From NCBI GenBank assembly GCA_030603445.1, contig JAUVXU010000029.1:1-7916 (forward strand): DNA of 7,916 nt, in the 5' to 3' direction. A program made the translations under genes and the position numbers. Source of the DNA: Methanomicrobia archaeon. Its GTDB lineage: Archaea; Methanobacteriota_B; Thermococci; Methanofastidiosales; NM3. Numbering within the stretch: the first letter of the stretch is position 1; the number at the start of each line of letters is the position of its first letter. Positions 4,526-7,916 of the stretch are shown here, piece by piece. Under the pieces are notes generated by a model that was not told where the DNA came from, did not search any database, and saw only the letters and a list, made by a program, of their open reading frames with translations.

Positions 4526-7500
4526 ATGTCTAAATTACTCAAAATCCTCCACGTGGAAGACGATTTCGATTATTCTGATATGTTTCAGCTGCAAATGAAC
4601 AGAATTGCCAAAAGAAAACAAGAAGAAGAATTCTCATTTGTTCTTGTCCCCTCTGTTGAAGAAGCTATTCAAAAGATAGATGAAAAAGAATACGACTGCA
4701 TAGTCTGCGACTATCAGATTATTGGGGGAAATGGTCTTGATATTCTCAAGGAAATGAGAAAGAGAAATGTCTTTACACCAATCATATTTCTAACAGGGCA
4801 GGGCGACGAGCAAGTGGCCCGGGAAGCATTTGTTCATGGGGCAAACGACTACTTCACAAAGGATGTTGGATTTGTAGGATATGACAGGATATACAACTCC
4901 ATATTAAGGTATATGGAGCTTTTCGAAACCAGCATGCAAAAGAAAGAAGCTGAGAACAAGTATCAAACTATCTTTGAAACAGGAAGCACCGCCATCGTCA
5001 TGCTTGAAGAGGACAGGACGATATCGCTTGTAAACTCGAAGTTTGAAGAACTTAGTGGTTATACCAAGGAAGAAGTGGAAAACAGGAAAAAATGGACAGA
5101 GTTTGTCACAAAAGACGATCTGGAGCGGATGAAAAAGTACCATCGGAACAGAAGGGTCGATGGGAAAAGCGCCCCAAGCGAATATGAGTTTCAATTCGTG
5201 ACTAAGGACGGAGGCGTGAGGGACATTTTCCTATCTGTTGGAATGATACCGGGAACGAAAAGAAGTGTGGCGTCCTTTTTGGATATAACAGAAGAGAAGA
5301 GAATAAACAAGCGCATCGAACACCTAAACAGCGTTCTTAAAGCCATACGAAATGTCAATCAGATGGTAGTAAAGGAAAGGGACAAAAACACCCTTCTCCA
5401 GAAGACCTGCGATACACTCATAGAAACACGTGGCTACACCGCAGCATGGATTGGGCTCTTAAAGGATGGCAATGATTTTTCCGTTATCAAGGGCGCAGGC
5501 CTTGGGAAGTATATTTCTCGATTCGCCAAAGAGATGTTGGCAGGGAATCGTCCCTACTGCATCAAGGAAGCACTATCCAGAAAAGAGGACATTATGTTGT
5601 TTTACAGCAGGGGCGAGGAGTGCAAAGACTGCTTTTTCAAAGACTCCCACCCCGAAGAGGGCGTTGCAATAATGCGAATCGAGTATGAAAATGAGCTTTT
5701 CGGACTGCTTGCAATAATACTTGCCCCAGATATGACCGTTGATGAAGAAGAGAAAGAACTCTTGAGTGAAGTTGCTGGCGATGTTGCATTTTCCCTTCAT
5801 ATGATGAGTTTAGAAGAGAAACGAAAAGAAGCAGAAGAGAATTTGCGAAAAGAAAAAGACAGGGCACAAAAATATCTTGATGTCGCCGGAGTAATGATTT
5901 ACCTCCTTGATAAGGATTATAATATCATACAAATCAACAAAAGAGGCTGTGAGATATTAGGATACGATGATGACAAGGATATCGTCGGCAGGAATTGGGT
6001 CGATAATTTTATTCCTGAAAAATATAAAGATAATATGAAAACAACTCTGGATAAAGTGATATCCGGGAAGACAGGGATTATCGAATATAATGAAAATTCA
6101 ATTTTAGATAAAAATGGAGAAGAGAGGATCCTTGCATGGCAGGACACCCTGATAAAAGATGAAAATGACATCTGTATTCTGACCTCGGGAGAAGATATTA
6201 CAGAAAAAAAGAAAGCAGAAAAACGCATCAACCACCTAAACAGCGTTCTTAAAGCCATACGAAATATTAACCAACTAGTGGTAAGGGATAAAAATAAGGA
6301 AACCATGCTGCAAATGACTTGTAATATTCTAACCGAAGCTCGTGGTTACGAAGCCATTATAATAGCCTCATTAAATGACAAAAATAATTTCGATACTGTA
6401 AAATATAATGGTTTTAATAAAGACATTCCTATTTTCTGCAAGCAAGTAAAAGCAGACAATTACCCCCTCTGTATCAGCAAGGCTCTGGACAACAATGAAT
6501 TAATAAGGATAATTGATAAAACAACGGCAAAAGAAGATTGTTTTTTTGCAAACACGTGCATAGGCAAAGAAGTTGCAATCGTACGAATTGAACATAATAA
6601 AAAACTTATGGGAATTCTTATCATCATGCTTTCCGGCGATGTGTTGATTGATGATGAGGAAAAGGAACTTTTGACCGAAGTTACCGGCGATTTAGGTTTT
6701 GCTCTTCACAATATACAACTTGAGAAGGCCCATAAAACATCAGAAATGATGCTAAAGGAAAGTGAAGACCGATTTAGAAATCTATTCAATAACATAGCCA
6801 ACTCAGTAGCTGTTTATGAAGCAATAGATGAGGGCAATGATTTTGTAATTAAGGATTTAAACAACGCAGGGGAAAAAATAGAGTGCATGAACAAGAAGGA
6901 TATCATAGGAAAGCGCGTGACAGAAGTATTTCCTGGAGTAAAAGAATCCGGCATATTTAATATATTTCAAAGGGTATGGAGAACCGGAAAATCAGAATAC
7001 TTCCCTGAAGCAGTTTATAAGGATGAACGCGGCCCAGGCAGCTGGAGGGAAAACTGGGTGTATAAATTGCCGAGCGGGGAAATAGTGGCAGTATATGATG
7101 ATATCACAAAAGGAAAACAGGTGCTAACGCAGCTGGAAAATAGCGAGAAACTTTACAAGACACTGTTTAACGATGCCCATGAAGGGATAATCTTAGTGAA
7201 CGAACATGAAAAAATAATCGATGCAAACAAAAAGTGTATCCAAATGTGTGGCTATGGTCCAGAGGAACTACTAATGATGAAGATATCTGATCTGCAATCC
7301 CCTAAACTACGTATGCAGCCCTTCCACCCAATATTTTCTAATTATTATCATACAAAAGATACGGTCTTTGAAACAAAGCTTATGAAAAAAGACGGGACAG
7401 AGCTAGATTGCGAGATCACAATCACAAAATTAGAAATAAATAATAAAAACATGTTTCTTTCCATCATACGAGACATTACCTTTCAAAAACATGCTAAGAA

Positions 7501-7831
7501 TCAACTTAAAAAACAAAAGGAAGAGCTTTCTGACTACGCCCATACTGTTGCACATAATCTAAAAAATCAGATAAATATCATTGAGGGATATATGGATTTA
7601 CAGTCAAAAGACAAAATTAACATTGATGAGTATACCCAAAGAACATCAAAGCATCTCAAGAAGCTAAAATTATCCATAATGCGCCAACTTCAATTGGCCG
7701 ATGCAGGAAGAATTATCGATCGTCCTGAAGATATCGATTTAAATATAATAATTGACAATGCTTCTAAAAATTATAGAGAATTACGATTAACTTCTATTTT
7801 TAGTTTTCTATCTGCTGTTTTCATGTTTTGA
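4526..7831 (+). CDS. Multi-domain sensor histidine kinase (REC-PAS-GAF-PAS-GAF-PAS-PAS-DHp) lacking its ATPase domain
   Basis: The protein has 1101 residues from the ATG at 4526; the in-frame TTG at 4517 is less likely. It has no signal peptide or membrane helix, so it is a cytoplasmic sensor. Residues 1-130 are a response-regulator receiver with acidic E11/D12/D13, phospho-acceptor Asp62, Thr90 and Lys112. PAS1 covers about 143-257 and GAF1 about 264-430. PAS2 (446-560) and GAF2 (567-733) repeat the same PAS-GAF module. PAS3 (744-863) is the methanogen-type PAS with GKRVTEVFPGV and RVWRTGKSEYFP. PAS4 (871-987) follows. A coiled segment then leads into the dimerisation/phosphoacceptor domain, YAHTVAHNLKNQINIIEGY (1004-1022), with His1010 as the likely phosphorylated residue. 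A linker (PEDIDLNIIIDNASKNY, 1067-1083) normally introduces the HATPase domain. The last 18 residues are then atypical and hydrophobic (RELRLTSIF...VFMF) and end at TGA. None of the ATP-binding N, G1 or G2 boxes is present. The gene is probably interrupted; it is divergent from the flavoprotein gene. Confidence 0.85.
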   Translation: MSKLLKILHVEDDFDYSDMFQLQMNRIAKRKQEEEFSFVLVPSVEEAIQKIDEKEYDCIVCDYQIIGGNGLDILKEMRKRNVFTPIIFLTGQGDEQVAREAFVHGANDYFTKDVGFVGYDRIYNSILRYMELFETSMQKKEAENKYQTIFETGSTAIVMLEEDRTISLVNSKFEELSGYTKEEVENRKKWTEFVTKDDLERMKKYHRNRRVDGKSAPSEYEFQFVTKDGGVRDIFLSVGMIPGTKRSVASFLDITEEKRINKRIEHLNSVLKAIRNVNQMVVKERDKNTLLQKTCDTLIETRGYTAAWIGLLKDGNDFSVIKGAGLGKYISRFAKEMLAGNRPYCIKEALSRKEDIMLFYSRGEECKDCFFKDSHPEEGVAIMRIEYENELFGLLAIILAPDMTVDEEEKELLSEVAGDVAFSLHMMSLEEKRKEAEENLRKEKDRAQKYLDVAGVMIYLLDKDYNIIQINKRGCEILGYDDDKDIVGRNWVDNFIPEKYKDNMKTTLDKVISGKTGIIEYNENSILDKNGEERILAWQDTLIKDENDICILTSGEDITEKKKAEKRINHLNSVLKAIRNINQLVVRDKNKETMLQMTCNILTEARGYEAIIIASLNDKNNFDTVKYNGFNKDIPIFCKQVKADNYPLCISKALDNNELIRIIDKTTAKEDCFFANTCIGKEVAIVRIEHNKKLMGILIIMLSGDVLIDDEEKELLTEVTGDLGFALHNIQLEKAHKTSEMMLKESEDRFRNLFNNIANSVAVYEAIDEGNDFVIKDLNNAGEKIECMNKKDIIGKRVTEVFPGVKESGIFNIFQRVWRTGKSEYFPEAVYKDERGPGSWRENWVYKLPSGEIVAVYDDITKGKQVLTQLENSEKLYKTLFNDAHEGIILVNEHEKIIDANKKCIQMCGYGPEELLMMKISDLQSPKLRMQPFHPIFSNYYHTKDTVFETKLMKKDGTELDCEITITKLEINNKNMFLSIIRDITFQKHAKNQLKKQKEELSDYAHTVAHNLKNQINIIEGYMDLQSKDKINIDEYTQRTSKHLKKLKLSIMRQLQLADAGRIIDRPEDIDLNIIIDNASKNYRELRLTSIFSFLSAVFMF
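5321..5353 (+). repeat. 33-base exact repeat, copy 1 (start of GAF1)
   Basis: This stretch encodes HLNSVLKAIRN at the start of the first GAF module (residues 266-276). It is identical at every base to 6233-6265, at a distance of 912 bases (304 codons), while the flanking module sequences have diverged substantially. Confidence 0.9.
6233..6265 (+). repeat. 33-base exact repeat, copy 2 (start of GAF2)
   Basis: This is the second copy, encoding the same eleven residues at 570-580 of the kinase. The 304-codon period equals the length of one PAS-GAF module, so the repeat marks an internal tandem duplication of the sensor part of the gene. Confidence 0.9.
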
Positions 7832-7850
7832 GTACTCCAAAAGGAGTACT
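7831..7850. repeat. Perfect hairpin overlapping the kinase stop codon
   Basis: AGTACTCC (7831-7838) and GGAGTACT (7843-7850) form an 8-bp perfect stem around an AAAA loop. Its first base is the last base of the kinase TGA stop. No T tract follows, so it is not a simple intrinsic terminator. It is the first of several consecutive hairpins and may belong to the end of a mobile element. Confidence 0.75.
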
Positions 7851-7893
7851 TACTGCCATCTATGCCCTTTTTGGGCATTTCCTGGCAGCAGTA
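7851..7893. repeat. Nested hairpin
   Basis: The inner stem is ATGCCC (7862-7867) with GGGCAT (7873-7878), closed by a TTTTT loop. It lies inside an outer stem of TACTG plus CCA (7851-7858) with TGG (7883-7885) and CAGTA (7889-7893), leaving three unpaired bases on the right side. The two-level structure suggests a folded RNA or a single-strand-recognised DNA end. Confidence 0.6.
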
Positions 7894-7895
7894 AA

Positions 7896-7916
7896 CCTGG
7901 CTTGCGCTAGGCCAGG
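7896..7916. repeat. Third hairpin at the window edge
   Basis: CCTGGC (7896-7901) pairs with GCCAGG (7911-7916) around a 9-base loop. The window ends exactly at the last paired base, so the structure may continue. CCTGGC also occurs at 7881-7886 in the preceding hairpin. Confidence 0.65.

Follow-up and report, generated by a model that had tools for sequence, protein, structure and literature searches.

Natural disruptions of prokaryotic genes by insertion sequences (IS) include cases such as the cas genes, for which an IS is reported to truncate a functional gene (PMC10359306). The locus analyzed here is almost certainly alike in that a gene has been truncated by an IS, and it differs in its target, a sensor kinase gene of an mcrA-bearing archaeon. 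The inserted element resembles members of the IS5 family (NCBIfam NF033581, transpos_IS5_4; DUF772 and DDE_Tnp_1 domains) in its short related terminal repeats, its 4-bp target duplication, and its multicopy occurrence, and a congeneric full-length transposase belongs to that family. Unlike such elements, the full copy is not assembled in the genome under study. The interrupted gene compares with archaeal histidine kinases that carry receiver, PAS, and GAF modules. Paralogues on contigs C33 and C31 share its H-box region and, once sequence from contig C26 is added, its HATPase domain, whereas the copy described here is split by the IS. The C33 paralogue is 75% identical to this kinase over the first 516 residues.

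The window, meaning the whole stretch of DNA that was analyzed, is contig C12 in full (7916 bp), from a 1.62-Mb genome assembled in 48 contigs (G000), and its end is the contig end (7916/7916). The genome bears mcrA and is therefore that of an archaeon of the methanogen type. The evidence leaves very little doubt that a recent-looking IS5-type insertion cut the sensor kinase gene in two, with the ATP-binding half now on C26.

The truncated kinase gene

The sensor kinase ORF occupies the plus strand from 4517 (TTG) or 4526 (ATG) to 7831 and ends with a TGA at 7829-7831; the two possible starts are in frame. Counted from the ATG, the 5' part of the gene (4526-7771) comprises 1082 codons ahead of the duplicated target. 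This part is supported by the ORF, by Pfam, and by homology to intact kinases. Pfam places receiver, PAS, and GAF domains in it, followed by an H-box region (AHTVAHNLKNQ, plus strand, 7538-7570) that aligns with its counterpart in intact kinases and has a SPOB_a match at sub-threshold level only. The phosphoacceptor histidine codon is likely 7553-7555. The motif HLNSVLKAIRN begins both GAF-type modules (5321-5353 and 6233-6265), where the DNA is nearly identical, and the two modules appear to represent an internal duplication. Other genes of the window lie within 252-2636. They encode a 162-aa protein with a sub-threshold match to the MGMT DNA-binding domain (252-740), a DUF333 lipoprotein-like product (874-1401), and an LRV/HEAT-like repeat protein (1845-2636).

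An earlier note on this DNA had described the kinase as ending before its ATP-binding domain in 18 atypical residues and a TGA. The ORF confirms this description. Its C-terminus reads DLNIIIDNASKNY followed by RELRLTSIFSFLSAVFMF, the latter being the 18 residues after NASKNY, and a Pfam search of the ORF found no HATPase domain, which leaves the present allele, as judged by ORF and Pfam, with no ATP-binding domain in the same protein. Base composition also changes near this point. The G+C content of 7741-7830 was put at about 22% and measures 22.2%, a value as low as that of none of the 3125 90-bp windows elsewhere in the gene. The rise 3' of the stop is real, and at 51.8% (7832-7916) it falls slightly below the 55% that had been claimed.

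The insertion sequence terminus

The sequence common to the repeats begins at GAGAATTACGATTAAC (7776-7791, plus strand), and therefore 7776 is the element terminus and the kinase/IS junction falls at 7775/7776. The TTAC at 7781-7784, previously offered as a possible junction, exists inside the terminal repeat, off by 6-9 bases. Immediately ahead of the terminus stands TATA (7772-7775), and the same TATA lies behind the other IS end at C26:139-142. The partner repeat on C26 is GAGTTTTTTGATTAAC, and both termini have GAG...T..GATTAAC in common, which gives the element the terminal inverted repeats of an IS5-family IS. From 7776 to 7916, the minus strand carries the 141-bp transposase-3'-side end of the element, which runs off the contig and equals the reverse complement of C41:1-141. 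The codon at 7775-7777 is composed of one target base and two IS bases, and the 18 IS-encoded residues RELRLTSIFSFLSAVFMF with their TGA (7775-7831, plus strand) are fused to the truncated kinase. The proposal that the last residues are read from inserted DNA has thus held, and all three checks suggested for it agree: recovery of the remaining HATPase coding sequence, comparison with intact kinases, and a multicopy test.

The sequence from 7776 onward is multicopy and dispersed. A comparison of 7700-7916 with the genome gave 11 matches, namely the locus itself and ten further places. C41:1-146 is 99% identical to the end of C12, with an exact match over 7776-7916 (C41:1-141), and nine weaker copies of the IS end start near 7762-7780 and show 76-97% identity over 29-140 bp. 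Scanning the genome with the terminal-repeat pattern returned 23 sites, against 7 with a reversed-pattern control. The identity of the C12 and C41 ends suggests recent movement of the IS. Because C41 has an identical IS end, it was considered as the opposite flank of this insertion and ruled out, as an unrelated gene and no HATPase lie next to its IS end. The frame next to this near-identical IS copy (L009:248-3445, about 1065 aa) starts with ALASSIVSRKCALFVGAGVTAASGG, which looks SIR2-like, and continues with an ATPase-like part; it is possibly a defense gene.

Short target duplications accompany the element: TATA flanks the kinase insertion on either side, and two other units have AGTA and TATA. 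No clear target duplication was seen at older short relics on C33 and C37. These relics (C37:12901-13199, L011:6902-7200, about 300 bp; C33, L013:2825-2972, 148 bp) retain the two IS termini but lack a transposase gene, and in this they resemble miniature elements or ones with internal deletions.

Three hairpins occupy the sub-terminal region of the IS on the minus strand (7831-7916), in keeping with the stacked hairpins that had been noticed after the stop. Folded as RNA, the minus strand of 7776-7916 reaches -45.5 kcal/mol (z = -4.6), and 0 of 200 shuffles were as stable. The hairpins presumably make up the untranslated 3' end of the transposase mRNA. The fold of the copy in the congeneric genome G001 is not strong (z = -0.9), and a conserved RNA structure is therefore not claimed. 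Beyond the terminal repeat, the 141-bp hairpin-rich end showed no close match to the corresponding end of the congeneric copy in an ungapped comparison of sequences that contain indels.

Probable assignment to the IS5 family

A Pfam DDE_Tnp_1 search of the genome bin found neither the IS interior nor a full transposase gene, and the family was therefore assigned via congeneric copies. The minus strand of C26:1-138 starts with GAGTTTTTTGATTAACC and codes for MTSFEKYILKQQYKNVAALGDKLSQ, the 5' end of the transposase gene. These are the first 25 transposase residues only, and they are 79-83% identical to two ORFs of G001. One G001 ORF, on its contig C25, spans 320 residues and matches NCBIfam NF033581 (IS5_4) with E = 2.9e-58, together with DUF772 and DDE_Tnp_1. 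The IS copies of G001 and G002 also sit at contig ends, and a plasmid search with the transposase N-terminus returned no match. Judged by these sequences, the element is most plausibly an IS of the IS5 family whose transcription runs counter to that of the kinase, and its hairpin-bearing 3' end faces C12. We infer its interior in G000 from the two ends, because the assembly breaks within the repeat. Going by the G001 copy, the whole element would measure roughly 1.2 kb.

The positions of these breaks are regular. C12 and C41 each extend exactly 141 bp into the element before they end, and the start of C26 lies 138 bp inside it. The TATA flank of C26 and the TATT flank of the C41 copy have three bases in common (138 + 3 = 141), which places the start of C26 141 bp before the base where the two flanks would diverge. 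The contig ends would fit a 141-base assembly overlap and two collapsed IS copies. Because the assembly is fragmented and the junction is 141 bp away from the end of C12, the cell might instead contain an intact kinase, with the end of C12 being a chimeric extension. This is highly improbable, since each kinase half runs independently into a different end of one IS and the two share the 4-bp duplication, and a chimera would not give a target duplication together with matching opposite termini.

The missing ATP-binding half

A HATPase_c profile search of the genome gave 15 matches, and only the one on C26 (181-489, in a 141-residue frame) is a short frame at a contig start adjoining an IS end. 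C26:1-138 is the opposite IS terminus, followed by TATAACATATCAG and the remaining kinase; from position 139 onward the sequence is TATAACATATCAGTTCAAAGG. Joining C12 up to 7771 with C26 from 139, so that TATA is counted once, yields one open frame of 1200 aa that reads ...DNASKNY-NISVQRDTIPLAKGDQQRMEIVFNNLFENAVDHG... across the join (KNY/NISVQRD). This frame has the H-box region and then a HATPase with N, G1, and G2 boxes, as expected of a HATPase-type histidine kinase before the insertion. Its last 260 residues match PF02518 (HATPase_c) with E = 4.9e-28. In tblastn, alignments of the same residues to intact kinases on C33 and C31 and in genome G004 extend across the junction at about 37-44% identity, and the G004 protein (L072) shows no gap there. 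The HATPase coding sequence expected beyond the element has thereby been located past the other IS end, and homology to intact kinases continues through the junction. Relatives yielded no full-length orthologue with an unoccupied site, a contig scan of genomes giving only a 28% match over the receiver domain, and the comparison across the junction draws on paralogues and on kinases that are more remote.

The insertion is not bridged by any contig, and we infer the physical linkage of C12 and C26. A HATPase derived from another IS-disrupted kinase, with the true partner of C12 missing, would accord with this indirect linkage and with the near-identical IS ends of C12 and C41, which represent two copies or more. 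That origin has only a slight chance of being correct, as the two halves agree in frame and in TATA, NASKNY/NISVQRDTIP matches an intact relative without a gap, and the other near-identical copy, on C41, has a TATT flank and adjoins an unrelated gene. The unseen spanning contig and interior do not weaken the reading of an IS5-type insertion much, because target, frame, homology, and terminus type are consistent between two independent junctions.

Proposed event and functional consequence

In the proposed event, an IS5-family IS transposed into the linker between the H-box region and the ATP-binding domain of a histidine kinase gene, with duplication of the 4-bp target TATA. The transposase gene lies antisense to the kinase, and the kinase frame therefore enters the IS 3' terminus and stops after 18 foreign residues. 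The truncated product retains the receiver, PAS/GAF, and H-box parts and is without the catalytic ATPase, and the ATPase half is left as an orphan at the start of C26. A kinase protein without N, G1, and G2 boxes should not autophosphorylate. The truncated kinase should accordingly be null for this activity, presumably with loss of function.

Residual function through a split kinase is very unlikely. In such an arrangement, the orphan HATPase would be made under IS-borne signals and would phosphorylate the truncated H-box protein in trans; its frame runs from stop to stop over C26:70-495, with an ATG inside the IS end at C26:76. The earlier note's own alternative of a stable, selected ATPase-less signaling protein that takes phosphate from a partner is barely credible. 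In its favor, receiver, sensor, and H-box parts are all present in the truncated frame, which is closed by a proper stop. Against it, the last 18 residues come from repeat DNA that recurs exactly at the end of a different contig, and the missing HATPase is found on C26, where it follows a matching TATA and continues the frame. An ATPase-less original design is therefore rejected.

The IS5-type insertion is ordinary in kind, though real. In this mcrA-bearing archaeon it is a clean and seemingly recent event that accounts for the truncated kinase as well as for several contig ends. Such truncations in fragmented genomes may be misread as new protein architectures, and caution is advisable.

Other units with the same termini

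An iron-uptake cluster seems to have been mobilized by these same termini, a lead of greater interest than the kinase insertion. A 4.2-kb unit at C47:39121-43347 (L010:3122-7348) has the two different IS termini in the arrangement of one element and AGTA on both sides. Its cargo consists of feoB in two ORFs, a small membrane-protein gene, and a DtxR-type regulator (dtxR); no transposase was found within the unit. The flanking genes, for an aldehyde dehydrogenase and an adenine deaminase, are 4.4 kb apart in G000 and about 120-675 bp apart in G001, G002, and G003, where the site is empty. Because the flanking genes are adjacent in these three related genomes, the unit resembles a mobile iron-uptake cassette that bears cargo and lacks a transposase. 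The related feoB locus of G002 showed no such IS termini.

TATA is a favored target, and a TATA match is therefore weaker evidence at a second, weaker candidate unit. This unit, at C47:78019-79642 (L067:4020-5643), has IS-type termini, TATA on both sides, and a 463-aa beta-propeller, lipoprotein-like gene inside.
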